This document shows positions 5,083 to 57,168 of a DNA stretch of 64,000 bases, in pieces. Source of the stretch: Streptomyces sp. NBC_01591 (GTDB taxonomy: Bacteria; Actinomycetota; Actinomycetes; Streptomycetales; Streptomycetaceae). The translations under genes and the position numbers were made by a program. How positions within the stretch are numbered: position 1 is the stretch's first letter; every line of letters starts with the position of its first letter. The notes beneath the pieces were generated by a model. That model was given only the letters and a program-made list of their open reading frames with translations. It was not told the origin of the DNA and ran no database searches. The stretch covers positions 558,001-622,000 of the forward strand of contig NZ_CP109327.1 of the NCBI RefSeq assembly GCF_035918155.1, read 5' to 3'.

Positions 5083-5229
5083 CGTCGGACAGGTCAGCGA
5101 ATACCTCGCCTGATCCATCGGATCGCGTGGAGAGCCGGATGCTCGGCCAATGGGCACGTCCGGTTCGGCGGGCGGGGATGGGAGAACCGACACCCGAAAA
5201 GGTGCACGGCGTCCCGTCCCCGACCCAAC
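5083..5229 (+). ncRNA. Relic of a group II intron, domains V-VI
   Basis: The stretch GAGCCGGATGCTCGG... GGGCACGTCCGGTTC (from 5133) folds as a group II domain V with the AGC triad. It is followed by a domain-VI-like hairpin and the 3' end CGACCCAAC at 5229. The next base begins IS701 transposase sequence in frame (IKKGTTSAG), so this intron once sat in the same transposase gene as the complete intron 84 bases downstream. Its 5' part is cut off by the IS3 end at 5082. It cannot splice. Confidence 0.65.
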
Positions 5230-5929
5230 TCATCAAGAAGGGCACCACATCGGCGGGGGTTGGCCGGCAGTACACCGGCACGTCGGGGAAGATCGACAAT
5301 TGCCAGATCGGTGGTGCGACGCGAGGTCGCACGCTGTGAGTGGTTACGCAGGGAGGAGGTCGGCATGACGCCGAGTACGTAACCCGGGCCAGTGTCCAAG
5401 GCCTGTCCCCTTCCCGACGTGCGTCGCTGGTAACGGCGGGGTGCGAAGCTCGGGGAAGAAGCCCAAGGACGCCCGTTCCATCCGGGTGTCACAGGCAAGG
5501 GGAAGACCGGACGGGTGAAGCTCACTGAATCCTCAACGATGCTCCGTGATGGCAAGCCTCGCAGATGGGAAGCAACAGCGGGGTGCAGGACTGGCCGCTG
5601 AGAAGCGGCAGGTGCCGGTCGAAGACACCGAGTCGGCCGGGAGGACACCACCGTCCCGGGGTAATGAGGGCGCCCACCCCGGTCGCATCTCACACGTGCG
5701 GAACGCGACAACCCCGTTGGGGTCCAGACCAACCGGTCTGGTCAGCCAACCGCAAGGAAGGCCCAACTCCCCAGCGGGCGCAGGACGGCCCAAGAAGCCA
5801 ACGCCGGTAGCCGAAAGGCAGCAGGAAACCGGGACAGAACATAGGCACCTCCGCCGAGTCCCACATAACTGGCCGGATACGGGTAGATGCCCGAACCCGA
5901 AAGGGTGCTGACGTGGGCCGGGTGAGCCT

Positions 5930-7717: not shown

Positions 7718-7811
7718 GCCCTCGGGGCTTGCTTGAGCCGAGCTGCGGGGAAAGCCCGCACGGCCGGTTCTGAGGGGGCGGGGACGCAGCAATGCGTCCC
7801 CGCTACCCGAC
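7718..7811 (+). ncRNA. Group II intron domains V and VI
   Basis: Directly after the RT stop. Domain V is the hairpin from GAGCCGAGCTGCGGG, through a GAAA tetraloop, to GCACGGCCGGTTC, with the catalytic AGC triad. Domain VI (GGCGGGGACGCAGCAATGCG...) ends at CCCGAC. The branch-point A could not be placed with certainty. Confidence 0.85.
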
Positions 7812-13068: not shown

Positions 13069-13659
13069 CCGGCCCGTGCCGAAACCGGATTACAGGAATT
13101 CAGAATTCTTGAGTGTTTGCATTTAATTGTTCCGGTCGGAGTCTTTGTCAGTGGTGTCTGCCAATATCCGCAGCATGCTGATGACAAGGAAACCAGCGCA
13201 GGGGCCTTGACCCCGGATCTTGAACACGTCTATGCGGCTCGGGTCAGGGTAGTTGATGTTGTTTGGAAGGTGTTCTCGTAAGCGATCGGGGAGCGTTGTC
13301 CGAGGCGGGAGTGCCGGCGTCGGGTGTTGTATCGGGTCAGCCAGCGGAAGGCGTCGAGTCGGGCCTCACGCTCGCTCGACCAGCCCTTTCGGCCTTTCAA
13401 TGTCTCTCTTTTGAAGCTGGCGTTGAACGATTCGGCGGCGGCGTTGTCCGCGCTGGACCCGACCGCGCTCATACTCTGCCGCACCCCAGCTGACCTGCAG
13501 ACTTCAGCGAAGATTCGACTCGTATATTGCGAGCCGTGATCGGTGTGCATCACCGCCCCGGCCAGGCTCCCGCGGGTCCGCTCGGCAGCCTGGAGGGCAT
13601 CGATGACGAGCTCGGTGCGCTCTACCTTCTTCCTGGGAGGCCCCAGTCATTCGTAGGGT

Positions 13660-13800
13660 TGCGGCACCCAGGGGAGGCGGGTGTGGCTCTCGGTGCGCTG
13701 CCGCCTTGTGGCTCCACATGCTTGGCCGCCCGGCTCCCCACGACGACTCGGCCGCCGATTAGGAAGTGCGAACAAGTCGCTGCGTAGAGCAATGCCGGCG
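13660..13800 (+). ncRNA. Candidate bridge RNA of IS110-1
   Basis: In the non-coding left end, CTCGGTGCGC (13689-13698) equals the left target flank (13611-13620), and CACATGC (13715-13721) is the reverse complement of the right flank GCATGTG (15060-15066). Further on, ATTAGGAAG (13758-13766) equals the element's right end (15052-15060), and GTAGAGC (13784-13790) is the reverse complement of GCTCTAC at the left end (13619-13625). The order of target loop then donor loop and the strand logic match the published IS110 bridge RNA. Exact RNA ends are not known. Confidence 0.75.
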
Positions 13801-13847
13801 AGGTCGTCCGTGGTACGCATCGTTCGAACGAGCATGTCAGGAGCGGG

Positions 13848-15044
13848 ATGAGCCGGATGTGGGCTGGGATCGACAGCGGCAAGGGCCACCACCACTGCCT
13901 CGCATTGGACTCCAGCGGAAAGACACTGCTGTCGCGGCGGGTCGCCAACGACGAGCCCGAGCTGCTGAAGCTGATCGGGGACGTCCTGGCCCTGGCCGGC
14001 GGCGAGCAGGTGACCTGGGCCATCGACATGACCGGCGGGGAGCCCGCGCTGCTGCTGGCCCTGCTGATCAACCACGGTCAGGAAGTCCTCTACATCCCGG
14101 GCCGCTTGGTGAACCGGGCATCCGACGGCTACCGAGGTGAGGGCAAGACCGACGCCCGCGACGCCTACGTCATCGCCGACCAGGCCAGGATGCGACGCGA
14201 CCTGCGACCCATCCGCCCCGGCGACGAAATCGCCATCGAGCTCAAGCTGCTGACCGGCCGCCGCGGTGACCTGGTCGAGGACCGCACCCGCGCGGTGAAC
14301 CGGCTACGCGGCACACTTCTGAGTATGTTCCCGGCCCTGGAGAGGGCCTTGGACCTGACCAATACGGGACCGCTCAAGCTCCTTGCGGGCTACCAGACCC
14401 CGGGCTCGATCCGTCGCGCCGGCACCGCGCGGCTGACGAAGTGGCTGGCCAATCGCAAGGTCCGCAACGCGCGATCCCTTGCCGAAACGGCCGTCGAGGC
14501 CGCCGAGCGCCAGCACACAGCTGTCCCCGGGGAGAAGACCATCGCGAAGCTGGTCCACACCCTGGCCGCGGAGGTGATGGCCCTCAACGGGCAGATCTCC
14601 GAGATGGACAAGCTCATCGAGGGCCGGTTTCGCGAACACGAACTCGCCGACATAGTCCAGAGCGTCCCGGGTATCGGTGCTGTGCTCGGCGCGGAGTTCC
14701 TCGCCTCGGTCGGCGGCAGCCTGGACGGGTTCGACTCAGCTGACGCGCTGGCGGCCTTCGCCGGCGTCGCTCCCGCGCCTCGTGACTCGGGCAAGGTCAG
14801 CGGCAATCTCCACCGGCCGAACAACTACCACCGAAGACTCCAGCGCGTCTTCTATACCTCCGCGCTGGTGAGCGTTCAGTTCGACCCGAACTCGCGGAAG
14901 TTCTACGACCGCAAACGCGCCGAGGGCAAGAAGCATGTCCAGGCCGTGCTCGCTCTCGCCCGCCGACGCGTCAACGTCCTATGGGCCCTGATCCGTGACC
15001 GACGGTGCTACGAAGTCACACCCGCTGCGATCACAGCCGCTTGA
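13848..15044 (+). CDS. IS110-family transposase (DEDD recombinase)
   Basis: 398 residues. The N-terminal RuvC-like domain carries GIDSGKGHHH (D9), AIDMTGGEPALLL (D60) and KTDARDAYVIADQ (D102 and D105), forming the DEDD site. The C-terminal Tnp domain has SVPGIGAVLGAEFLASVGG and a DSGKVSG segment with the likely catalytic serine near residue 317. It would cut and rejoin target and donor under guidance of the bridge RNA encoded just upstream. The ATG at 13848 is preceded by GGAGCGG. The gene looks intact. Confidence 0.9.
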   Translation: MSRMWAGIDSGKGHHHCLALDSSGKTLLSRRVANDEPELLKLIGDVLALAGGEQVTWAIDMTGGEPALLLALLINHGQEVLYIPGRLVNRASDGYRGEGKTDARDAYVIADQARMRRDLRPIRPGDEIAIELKLLTGRRGDLVEDRTRAVNRLRGTLLSMFPALERALDLTNTGPLKLLAGYQTPGSIRRAGTARLTKWLANRKVRNARSLAETAVEAAERQHTAVPGEKTIAKLVHTLAAEVMALNGQISEMDKLIEGRFREHELADIVQSVPGIGAVLGAEFLASVGGSLDGFDSADALAAFAGVAPAPRDSGKVSGNLHRPNNYHRRLQRVFYTSALVSVQFDPNSRKFYDRKRAEGKKHVQAVLALARRRVNVLWALIRDRRCYEVTPAAITAA

Positions 15045-16321
15045 CAACAGCATTAGGAAGCATGTGATCGGCGATCGCCCACCCGGCCAGACGGCGTGAA
15101 CACAGGTCGATCACGGTCGCGAGATAGAGCGGTTTCGCGCCGCTGACCGGCAAGTATGTGATGTCGCCGACGTACTTCGCGTTCACCGCGGTCGCGGTGA
15201 AGTCGCGTCCGATCAGGTCCGGCACCTTCGCCGTGGCCGGGTCCGCGACGGTGGTGCGGTGCCGGCGCCGCAGGCGGACGCCTTCCAGGCCGACGGTCCG
15301 CATGATCCTCGCGACCCGCTTGTGATTGACCACCAGGCCGCCGTCCTCGCGGAGCTCCGCGGTGATCCTCGGGGCGCCGTAGGTGCCGTCGGAGTCCTGG
15401 TGAACCTTGCGTATCCGGGCCGCGAGTTCGGCCTCGGCGGCCTGCCGGGCCGTCCGTGCAGCCGCGGTGCGGCGCCAGTAGTAGAAGCTCGAGCGGGCGA
15501 TTCCCAGCAACGAGCACAACCGCGTGACGCCGAACCGGCGCTGGTGATCTTCAACGAACTGGCAGCGGTTCAGGAGCCGTCAATCAACTACTGCCTGATT
15601 TGATCTTGTTGTCGTGGTCGGTGATCACCTTTTGCAGAGCTTCGAGTGTGCGTGGTGGATGCGTCTGTGGGGTGAGGGTGGGGGTGAGGTCGGTTCCGGC
15701 GAAGGCCAGCAGTGGCCTGCTCGTCATGGCGTGGTAGCTCAGCGTGTTGCGGTCGTGTCCGAGGATCTTGCCCATCAGGGTCAGGGTGACGGTGTTGCGG
15801 ACTCTGAGTAGGGCGACCAGGACGCGGTGGCGGTGGTCGAGGATGCCGAATCCGGGGTTGCGGCCGCGCCGGTCCCGCCCTTCGTTCTGGCGCTGGGCCT
15901 CGGCCAGGATCTGGCGACATGGTTCGAGCTGGAGCACGAACTGGTCGAACTCCTCGCGTGTCAGGCCGGTCAGGACAGGGTGGGTGAGGAGGAAAGTCGC
16001 CTCGGCCGGGACCGGCGGCGGTGCTGGCTCGGGTGCGGATCGGGCAGCTTGTGCGGGGTGATCGTGTAGTTCCACTCGCCATGGAACTCGTCGCGGGTGA
16101 CGCGCTCCGTGATCGCTTTGCGGTCGGCCCGGGTGAGTTTGCGGCCGGTGGGGTAGGTGTTCTCGTCCAGTGCGGCCTTGACGGTCGGTCCGGTGCGGGT
16201 CCGGGTCGCCGAGATCGTCTGGATCAGTACTTCGTAGCTGGTCAGGGGTCGGCCGCGCAGGCTGTGGGTAATGCGGGAGAACAGGCGGTGTTCGACCTTG
16301 TTCCATTTCGATGTCCCGGGC

Positions 16322-18784: not shown

Positions 18785-18845
18785 CGCCGAGTAGCCGAGG
18801 GGAATTTCACCCCTCGGCCCTCACAGAACCGTGCTTAACAGTCTC
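18785..18845 (-). ncRNA. Domains V-VI of the outer group II intron
   Basis: Read on the minus strand, GAGCCGTGTAACGGGAGACT...AAGCACGGTTC is domain V. It is followed by domain VI with the GAGGGGTGAAATTCCCCTC hairpin and the end CTACTCGGCGAC. The AGC triad is present. It is still attached to RT C-terminal coding sequence but has no matching 5' end in the window. Confidence 0.75.
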
Positions 18846-19323
18846 CCGTTACACGGCTCTTGTCGTCCTGATCATCAGACCAGTACGGCGCTCACTGTTG
18901 GGGCAAGGCGCCAGTGCGCGAACATGCGGGGATATCGCCGAGCGATCTCCTGCAATTTCGCGAGCGCCTTCCGTTTGGCCGCGAGCCGTTTGTACTTCTT
19001 GCGGATCCAGCGCACCAGGTAGGCGTTGATGCGCACCATGAAAGGGATCAGTTCCCAGGGCCTGAAACGGCCGTAGTAATTGATCCAGCCCGCTACCTTG
19101 GGGTTGACCCATCGGGCGAGTTCTTGAAAGGTCAGATCTGTGCGGGTATGTAGGTGCCAGCTCCGCACTACCCGGCCGATCCTTTTCAGGGCGTCCTTGC
19201 TGATCCCCGGGTCGACCGCCAGGAACACATTTCCCTGTCGGCTCCGGTTCTTCCTGGCACGGAACGTGTACCCGAGAAACGTGAACGCCGTGTGCTCGTA
19301 GGAGCTTCGGCGATTCCCGTCCT

Positions 19324-19402
19324 GTCGGGTGGCCCGGGGGAATCTCACCCCCGGGCTCCCACAGATCCCGGCGTGAACTTCTCAGTTCACCGGGCTCTTA
19401 CT
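19324..19402 (-). ncRNA. Domains V-VI of the inner group II intron
   Basis: Minus-strand GAGCCCGGTGAACTGAGAAG...TTCACGCCGGGATC forms domain V. The next hairpin, with stem GGGGGTGAGATTCCCCC, is domain VI, and the intron ends CACCCGAC at 19324. Confidence 0.8.
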
Positions 19403-20690: not shown

Positions 20691-21354
20691 TCAGCCCGGT
20701 TGATCGAACGAACAACAGCCACGGACAGCCCGGCCCCTTGGCTCCACTCCCATTACAGGAGCTTCATCACTACTACGAACCGGTCCGCCAGCGGACCCCG
20801 ACTCGGTACTCAGCCCCTTGTGGTTTCTGCCACTTGGGGCGCTCCCTTTCGCCCACCCGAGGGTTGACGGCATCGGGGCACGCCTTCTCCCGTTCCGTAC
20901 GGAAGCGGCAGATCAGGATCACGTCGTCTACATGCCGGACACCGCCTGGCCAATGAGCGGGTACCCGCCAGACTTGTCCCGGGATAACTGCAACATCCCG
21001 GTTTTGATGTCAGCTGTTCGTGTTACGACACGTCAGCAACGATTCGCTTGCGCTCGTCTTCCTGATCCCTACCTGACGTCTCTTACGACGCCTTTTCCTC
21101 ATCGCTCACCACGACGGTCTTCAATCCAACGCAGCATGAGGCGGTTTGAAGCCTCCCCCCGCAGGGCGACTTCGAAGGGCCTTCCTTCATCTTCCGCACA
21201 GCACCGCATCAAGTCGCTCTACCTACATAAAGCTTCCCTTCGCGTTCGGGACACACTGCAGTACACGATCTTGGTTTTGTCGGGGTGCAGCCGCAGCCCG
21301 ACCTCTTCCATCCTGTCCCCGAGCGCCTTCAGGACCTGTTGGGCCTGGCGCTCA

Positions 21355-55839: not shown

Positions 55840-56540
55840 GCTGCGATGGTCTTCTCCCCGGGGACAGCTGTGTGCTGGCGCTCGGCGGCCTCGACGGCCG
55901 TTTCGGCAAGGGATCGCGCGTTGCGGACCTTGCGATTGGCCAGCCACTTCGTCAGCCGCGCGGTGCCGGCGCGACGGATCGAGCCCGGGGTCTGGTAGCC
56001 CGCAAGGAGCTTGAGCGGTCCCGTATTGGTCAGGTCCAAGGCCCTCTCCAGGGCCGGGAACATACTCAGAAGTGTGCCGCGTAGCCGGTTCACCGCGCGG
56101 GTGCGGTCCTCGACCAGGTCACCGCGGCGGCCGGTCAGCAGCTTGAGCTCGATGGCGATTTCGTCGCCGGGGCGGATGGGTCGCAGGTCGCGTCGCATCC
56201 TGGCCTGGTCGGCGATGACGTAGGCGTCGCGGGCGTCGGTCTTGCCCTCACCTCGGTAGCCGTCGGATGCCCGGTTCACCAAGCGGCCCGGGATGTAGAG
56301 GACTTCCTGACCGTGGTTGATCAGCAGGGCCAGCAGCAGCGCGGGCTCCCCGCCGGTCATGTCGATGGCCCAGGTCACCTGCTCGCCGCCGGCCAGGGCC
56401 AGGACGTCCCCGATCAGCTTCAGCAGTTCGGGCTCGTCGTTGGCGACCCGCCGCGACAGCAGTGTCTTTCCGCTGGAGTCCAATGCGAGGCAGTGGTGGT
56501 GGCCCTTGCCGCTGTCGATCCCAGCCCACATCCGGCTCAT
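55840..56540 (-). pseudogene. IS110-family transposase, C-terminally truncated
   Basis: Same first 233 residues as the IS110-1 protein, including all DEDD residues (GIDSG, AIDMT, KTDARDAYVIAD), but the Tnp domain with the catalytic serine is missing. The ORF runs on into antisense IS3-E sequence and stops at 55785. It lacks the strand-exchange domain and is inactive. Confidence 0.85.
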
Positions 56541-56589
56541 CCCGCTCCTGACATGCTCGTTCGAACGATGCGTACCACGGACGACCTCG

Positions 56590-56730
56590 CCGGCATTGCT
56601 CTACGCAGCGACTTGTTCGCACTTCCTAATCGGCGGCCGAGTCGTCGTGGGGAGCCGGGCGGCCAAGCATGTGGAGCCACAAGGCGGCAGCGCACCGAGA
56701 GCCACACCCGCCTCCCCTGGGTGCCGCAAC
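56590..56730 (-). ncRNA. Candidate bridge RNA of IS110-2
   Basis: The same guides as in IS110-1, on the minus strand: target guides at 56690-56699 and 56667-56673, donor guides at 56622-56630 and 56598-56604. The retained left flank in IS3-E (CTCCGTGCGC read on the minus strand) differs from the target guide CTCGGTGCGC at one position. The right flank is deleted. Confidence 0.65.
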
Positions 56731-57168
56731 CCTACGAATGACTGGGGCCTCCCAGGAAGAAGGTAGAGCGCACGGAGCTGGTCACCGACGCACTCAGGGC
56801 CGCCGCAGCGGCCCGCGGCGCCGACGGCCTGCACGGGGCGATTTTCCACAGCGACAACGGAGCCCAGTACGCGTCGAGGGAGTTCGCCCAGGTCTGCTCG
56901 GAACTCGGCGTGACCAGATCACGCGGCGCGGCGGGCACGAGCGCGGACAACGCCACCGCGGAGAGTCTGAACGCGACCATGAAACGCGAGACGCTCCAGG
57001 GACGGAAACGGTGGGACGGGGCCCGCGAGGCCCGCCTCGCGGCCTTCCGATGGGCAACCCGCTACAACACCCGCCGACGGCACTCCCGCCTCGACCAGAT
57101 CAGCCCGATCGCCTACGAACAACGATCAACTACGCTGGCCACCGCCGCATGACAACCGGTGTCCACGA

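Follow-up and report, generated by a model that had tools for sequence, protein, structure and literature searches.

A probable IS110-group bridge-RNA element with a GC core in Streptomyces sp. NBC_01591, and the stop-codon addresses of its relatives

The window analysed here, a stretch of 64,000 nucleotides from Streptomyces sp. NBC_01591 (NZ_CP109327.1, positions 558,001 to 622,000 of the forward strand), contains a minus-strand IS3-type transposase gene that is split by a second mobile element. Reading this element from left to right, we see a long left non-coding end (LE), a transposase gene of the IS110 family and a very short right non-coding end (RE), the whole bracketed by two copies of a GC dinucleotide ‘core’ (Table 1); when the flanks are joined across it, the interrupted gene becomes one open stretch of 302 residues through AIADHMRTELVIDAL. 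The disparity of the ends, 227 nt against 15 nt, would correspond to the layout of the IS110 group, where the RNA region lies upstream of the transposase; the trait of the IS1111 group, a bridge RNA in the right end, is not seen in this 15-nt right end. We read the locus, with a probability of about 0.95, as an IS110-group insertion sequence that is complete and has a putative bridge RNA encoded in its left end.

The transposase carries both IS110 domains, PF01548 and PF02371 (E 2.4e-51 and 8.8e-21, respectively), and a profile alignment reaches the transposases of ISCro4 (66.8 bits) and IS621 (58 bits), for which structures have been solved. Across 14 aligned relatives, residues D9, D105 and S314 are invariant and D102 is nearly so. 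The genome of the window also houses 14 copies of another IS110-family element (L004-L017), at 37% protein identity; apart from a run of C at the junctions their flanks have little in common, the ends are unsure, and their targeting looks loose.

A first-pass annotation of this DNA had proposed that all four guides of a bridge RNA can be read in the left end, and a letter-by-letter comparison bears out every segment: the left target guide (LTG) is a 10-base copy of the left flank, the right target guide (RTG) is reverse-complementary to 7 bases of the right flank, the left donor guide (LDG) repeats 9 bases of the element's right end, and 7 bases of the right donor guide (RDG) are reverse-complementary to the core and left end. 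Their positions, order and strand agree with the published IS110 bridge-RNA layout (PMC11208160), and the core, proposed to be GC in place of CT, is indeed GC; cores read across the subfamily are GC, TC and GT. Chance had been called a very unlikely source of the four matches, as it proves to be: when the left end (leaving aside its first 5 nt) is dinucleotide-shuffled 20,000 times, exact copies of the single motifs turn up in 0.13% (LTG), 0.99% (RTG), 0.015% (LDG) and 1.3% (RDG), and 0 of the 20,000 hold all four. Amongst real sequence, 26 of 6378 stretches of 227 nt (both strands of the window, step 20) contain at least two of the motifs; all 26 overlap the two copies of the left end that the window holds.

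Table 1. Features of the element, its target and its second copy (positions in the window).
Feature	Position	Strand	Basis
Left target flank including core, CTCGGTGCGC, in IS3-type transposase gene	13611..13620	+	Joined flanks form one open stretch
GC core, left copy	13619..13620	+	Same core at right end, in target and in guides; intact host genes for copy 2
LE, 227 nt, encodes putative bridge RNA	13621..13847	+	Conserved in relatives (alignment A1); compensatory fold; upstream of transposase as in IS110 group
TACCTT, -10-like box; 17-bp spacing to TTGACA when RE, core and LE are joined	13623..13628	+	Junctions of relatives
Target-binding-loop stem, 5' arm, pairs with 13725-13739	13671..13687	+	Helix 2 of A1, both sides changed at 6 pairs
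LTG, equals left flank 13611-13620 (CTCGGTGCGC)	13689..13698	+	Letter comparison; covariation in relatives
RTG (CACATGC), reverse complement of right flank 15060-15066	13715..13721	+	Letter comparison; covariation in relatives
Target-binding-loop stem, 3' arm	13725..13739	+	Helix 2 of A1
Donor-binding-loop stem, 5' arm, pairs with 13796-13811	13740..13754	+	Helix 4 of A1, both sides changed at 3 pairs
LDG, equals right end 15052-15060 (ATTAGGAAG)	13758..13766	+	Letter comparison; relatives
RDG (GTAGAGC), reverse complement of core and left end, 13619-13625	13784..13790	+	Letter comparison; varies with core in relatives
Donor-binding-loop stem, 3' arm	13796..13811	+	Helix 4 of A1
Transposase, 398 aa, DEDD_Tnp_IS110 and Transposase_20	13848..15044	+	Domains; alignment with IS621 and ISCro4 transposases
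TTGACA, -35-like box; junction promoter expected only in the circle	15041..15046	+	Junctions of relatives
RE, 15 nt, terminates in ATTAGGAA	15045..15059	+	Sequence; relatives
GC core, right copy	15060..15061	+	Sequence
Right target flank including core, GCATGTG	15060..15066	+	Sequence; letter comparison
Interrupted IS3-type transposase, C-terminal part	13230..13553	-	rve domains
Interrupted IS3-type transposase, N-terminal part; frame enters element (DHM-LPNAVVKRL-stop)	15031..15519	-	Open reading frame and domain search
Copy 2 of element, 3'-truncated, in another IS3-type gene	55843..56767	-	Search: 100% identity, query bases 1-935
Copy 2 left target, CTCCGTGCGC, 9/10 match to guide	56768..56777	-	Sequence; intact host copies

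The first-pass annotation had made its case depend on a conserved two-loop fold, and such a fold is present, with compensatory changes. The consensus of 57 left ends comprises a short 5' stem followed by a target loop and a donor loop, with LTG and RTG on the two sides of the former and LDG and RDG on the two sides of the latter. In this consensus 98.7% of cells are paired, slid versions of it pairing at 25.7-54.7%, and both sides have changed in 96 cells as against a shuffle mean of 18. Because the structure was derived from the same alignment on which pairing was scored, the percentage paired is by itself no proof; more weight attaches to the double changes at 6 pairs of the target-loop stem.

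Relatives of the element, gathered by named loci (the best 80 of 91, mostly from Streptomyces and its kin; of 392 congeneric genomes, 324 gave a match, in many cases a partial one, at E no higher than 0.001), allow guide and target to be compared as both change. A regular expression read the left guide in 118 of 140 elements with a transposase start, the 22 without a guide being dropped, as were 37 loci that lack such a start. The left side was available in 103 elements, which gave 50 unique guide/target pairs, a set that omits 3 odd left-end lengths plus elements without a left boundary. Guide and target match at 8 or 9 of 9 bases in 42 of the 50 pairs, and their total of 382 matches was reached in 0 of 20,000 permutations (mean 237, standard deviation 10). 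On the right, 268 of 345 positions beyond the core match across 69 unique pairs, the permutation mean being 110 (standard deviation 8.6) and the highest of 20,000 permutations 152. Two positions further out match at the level expected of crossed pairs, and the right guide therefore amounts to the core plus about five bases; the earlier claim that the RTG complements the right flank stands with this correction, pairing across the relatives not extending beyond that length.

The left flank can also be located in the left end without using the position of the guide: in 107 of 115 elements, both window copies included, the single best match is at position 67-75 (a set that omits 21 elements without a recognised boundary). 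At 9-10 of 10 bases, 93 of the 115 flanks match, compared with six at 9 and none at 10 among 575 control 10-mers drawn from distant flanks of the same loci. Identical left ends at unrelated targets, the pattern that the first-pass annotation had named as speaking against its proposal, were looked for among the relatives and not encountered: all six copies in Streptomyces sp. AC1-42W (L031-L035, L083) have TCAGTGGGC on their left, all six SM10 copies (L040-L044, L061) have TCAGGCCGC, and L062-L064, with one common guide, lie at targets with one mismatch each. The flanks of L111 (Streptomyces) and L038 (Streptomyces sp. AP-93) are the same as those of the window element.

Guide and target differ in length by one base in L076, L077, L120, L130, L139, L142 and L148, which suggests tolerated bulges or a shifted register. 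Tolerance of wobble pairs was considered and set aside: 21 of 68 left-guide mismatches are rG-dT or rU-dG, but many of the mismatches counted are register slips and we therefore make no claim of wobble; an rG:dT pair is already on record in PMC11208160.

Cores were read in 93 elements with both RE and RDG (25 without a read right end were dropped, and the counts are not de-duplicated), as GC in 68, TC in 12 and GT in 13. In every one of the 93 the core read at the right end recurs among the last four bases of the left flank, and the RDG changes in step with the core: GTAGAGC or GTAGGGC with GC, GTAGGGA with TC and GTAGGAC (once GCAGGAC) with GT. On a FastTree phylogeny of 84 proteins the core needs 5 changes and the left target 7-mer 65. 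Joined as RE-core-LE, the ends of the window element read TTGACA-17-TACCTT; TTGACN and TANNNT, which we take as a candidate promoter, stand at exactly 17 bp in 55 of 67 distinct junctions and at 16-18 bp in 65 of 67, a circle-junction promoter having been described for IS621 (PMC11208160).

Other cores appear in two further observations. A solo left-end remnant with a GT core (L019, G000 C2:583976-584097) lies in the genome of the window, at a locus without a transposase match, and its guide TGATTGGGT, judged by eye, still matches its left flank. The TC-core group L137, L146, L147, L153, L154, L158, L249 and L250 has guides such as AAAAGGCTC, mostly at GAAAAGGCTC-ACTG-like sites; a terminator was entertained as the target of these AAAAGGCTC guides and rejected, no terminator stem being visible by eye in the flanks.

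Copy 2 of the element occupies the same place in a different IS3-type gene, with its 3' part lost; its guides are identical to those of copy 1 and its left target CTCCGTGCGC is one base off the guide. Intact copies of its host gene in the same genome (L180, L181), 98-99% identical to the flanks, run uninterrupted through CTCCGTGCGCATGTGGTC and therefore fix the left boundary and the core of copy 2 (its right boundary being lost). Insertion without duplication other than of the core is thus seen for copy 2 on its left side by way of L180/L181, and for copy 1 by the continuity of the joined frame only. The truncated IS3 product at the window element ends in LPNAVVKRL, where the frame differs; the HTDHGSQY stretch of the IS3 product presumably contains the second D of the DDE residues. 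Among 392 congeneric genomes the exact guide context occurs in one, that of the window, at the two known copies; guide matches with 1-2 mismatches occur in 136 of 392 genomes among the matches listed, and a reversed-pattern control also gives such matches. Elsewhere in the window, six group II intron matches exceed the Rfam gathering scores (5130-5470, 7733-7811, 18786-18861, 19324-19399, 21071-21188).

We picture the cycle of the element as follows. Excision would give a circle, and the RNA would be transcribed from the promoter TTGACA-17-TACCTT that the joined ends create. Of the two loops of the RNA, the first would pair with the target, left guide to bottom strand and right guide to top strand, and the second with the joined ends of the element itself, the transposase then exchanging strands at the shared GC core. 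The address held by the RNA of the window element would be a codon stretch of IS3-type transposase genes. From the sequences at hand we infer expression of the RNA, its binding and recombination, as well as an adaptive meaning for the exchange of stop codons considered below.

Might the matches be accidents or duplications within a decayed element, and no RNA be at work? For each 7-base motif, about 1% of shuffled left ends do hold an exact match by chance, and the left end of the window element, folded singly, does no better than its shuffles (z -0.09); we nevertheless give this idea almost no credence, given the covariation over 50 left and 69 right unique pairs, the localisation of flank to guide in 107 of 115 elements, the compensatory changes in the stems and the way that cores change together in flanks, ends and RDG. 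That the protein chooses the target, and the copies of the flanks in the RNA are a by-product of past recombination, strikes us as very improbable: matching of guide and target by descent is conceivable among related copies, but closely related proteins have different guides that match different targets, the left target 7-mer changes 65 times over 84 tree rows, and control by RNA has been published for IS621 and ISEc21 (PMC11208160 and PMC11187229). Counting against a bridge RNA, besides the single-sequence fold just cited, are the second DEDD residue, D60 and not E in 14 of 14 aligned transposases (the N-terminal ISCro4 alignment that places it is weak, at 14 bits); the 8 of 50 unique left pairs that score 6 of 9 or below, seven of them being one-base length slips of guide or target and one a miss of the regular expression, as judged by eye; the 8 of 115 left flanks without a unique localisation to the guide; the right end of L157, which was misread; and the lack of any Rfam family at the left end at gathering scores, matches in the window being to group II intron families only. 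With these in the balance we keep to the reading of an IS110-group element with its own bridge RNA: taken alone, the window system is with high confidence a further example of the established type, the natural cores and gene-end address making up a subfamily variant.

That gene-end address emerges from the relatives, where 25 of 39 distinct guides start with the complement of a stop codon (24 TCA, 1 CTA) at positions -9 to -7. The 39 guides derive from 123 of 176 elements with a left end, the other 53 being left out (5 failures of the regular expression, 40 without a right end, 8 with the core not placed). A target was scored as a gene end where a minus-strand frame of 100 codons or more, with a G+C content at third codon positions of at least 0.8, terminates in frame at the target. 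By this measure 22 of 58 stop-type targets in a first set fall at an in-frame gene end, with 1 each in the other two frames, and the same 9-mers elsewhere in the flanks, taken as control, give 10, 25 and 4 of 108 in the three frames. A second set, from a family-wide search of 394 genomes (30 new unique insertions, 22 of stop type), has 7 of 22 in frame and 0 in the other frames (p 0.0099 vs the control, 10/108). Pooled, re-read and de-duplicated, the insertions lie at a gene end in 28 of 77 cases vs 10 of 108 control sites (Fisher 1.2e-5), and in the other two frames in 1 of 77 vs 29 of 108; of the 205 in the pooled set 29 failed at the boundary and 42 had a left side only, 2 of 207 not having been analysed. 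Target sites that are not of stop type (32) are spread as 4, 0 and 4 across the three frames. A Pfam domain is in frame at 9 of the 10 gene ends tested.

The right ends answer to this pattern on the other side of the element. Translated from the minus strand, in register with the lost stop, they hold a stop at codon 3 in 60 of 87 unique sequences and by codon 5 in 76 of 87; frame 1 has no stop before codon 12, and frame 2 has two at codon 6, then none before 11. At 26 of the 28 gene-end insertions TAA stands at the same codon as the lost stop, for example GCCGCCTGA -> GCTTCCTAA, and the length of the gene is kept; the remaining two have their stops at codon 5 and codon 10. In our model, an insertion of this kind would swap the last codons for GCT TCC TAA (or GAT TCC TAA, ACC TCC TAA) at unchanged length, because most guides start with the stop complement and TAA stands at the corresponding codon of most right ends; bridge RNAs of the subfamily would read a stop complement, four codon bases and the core, with the right-end stop in the same register. 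One insertion at a gene end of TAA type, L243, lies in a Mutator-type transposase gene, and its target TTATGCGGT and guide CTATGCGGT are one base apart, yet both read as stop codons.

In a more prosaic account, gene-end insertions reflect no more than purifying selection and the abundance of such gene ends where G+C is high, and the right-end TAA is a by-product of donor pairing. This account is a serious contender, one that we place somewhat short of even odds: selection would remove insertions within genes (frames 1 and 2 hold 1/77 vs 29/108 in the control), ATTAGGAA has to match the LDG anyway, and independent contrasts on the tree are too few. It is opposed by the stop complement, kept at the same three positions in 25 of 39 distinct guides while other positions vary, and by the in-frame TAA, which each of the three core clades has in frame 0, exactly where the lost stop codon stood. 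Further points tell against an exchange of stop codons. The guide of the window element starts with TCG, points into IS3 genes and is not of stop type; 49 of the 77 stop-type sites lie off a gene end by the criteria used; the flank required was 360 nt for control sites and 330 for insertions; 27 of 84 tree rows have no stop (TAA) at codon 3, right ends of this kind being by tally mostly ATTGGGAA types; and coevolution of guide and right end on the tree comes down to just 2-3 independent pairs. As this is too little independence for a claim of coevolution, we describe the exchange as a matter of anatomy and infer its selective meaning.

The window element itself belongs to an all-GC clade of 25 rows, in which the nearest row (L031, 91%) has a TCA guide, and is best read as a retargeted member of the subfamily. 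Overall we lean towards a subfamily with a gene-sparing RNA address and a right-end stop in the same register, shared by the GC, TC and GT clades, from which the branch of the window element departed by taking as its address, in place of the stop, a stretch of codons in IS3 transposons, its rivals; this suggests that a change of guide can turn a stop-address element against other transposons. The words ‘stop codon’ are absent from the main text of PMC11208160 and PMC11187229, and no earlier account of the stop exchange was found among the papers searched, subscription papers and supplements being outside the scope of the search.

The analysis adds an actinobacterial bridge-RNA system that is well supported and has GC as its natural core, within a subfamily whose GC, TC and GT cores, each with matching guides and ends, would be useful where the CT core of IS621 limits programming. 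Should the stop exchange be confirmed, it would represent an RNA-guided transposon that chooses landing sites sparing its host, and a design for inserting DNA at the last codons of genes without loss of protein.

Set beside known systems, the element resembles IS621 (PMC11208160) in its DEDD and Transposase_20 domains, its long left end and its use of a dinucleotide core for insertion. The four guides are likewise distributed over two loops, with order and strands unchanged, and both elements have a circle-junction promoter, here a candidate one. It departs from IS621 in its core (GC, with TC and GT in relatives, rather than CT), its target (IS3 genes rather than REP, repetitive extragenic palindromic, sequences), a distantly related protein and the D found for E at the second catalytic position. 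ISEc21 (PMC11187229) is likewise of IS110 type, has its RNA in the upstream region and also targets IS3-family transposase genes, so that IS110 targeting of transposons is already known; it hits codons at the second D of the catalytic DDE, whereas here the DHMRTEL codons are hit, N-terminal to HTDHGSQY. With IS900 (PMC8141618) there is shared a target motif, CATGNNNNNNTCTCCTT in that element, that resembles a translation signal and rarely lies in coding sequence. By our own reading of the motif, IS900 addresses the region of the start codon and ribosome site, whereas here the address is mostly a stop codon, with the stop re-supplied. Insertion at or beside the ends of genes, such that the host gene survives, is also the habit of Tn7 and of integrases that use gene or tRNA ends. 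There it is achieved by DNA-binding proteins or by duplication of the attachment site; here it would be the work of RNA guides together with a stop codon carried in the right end.

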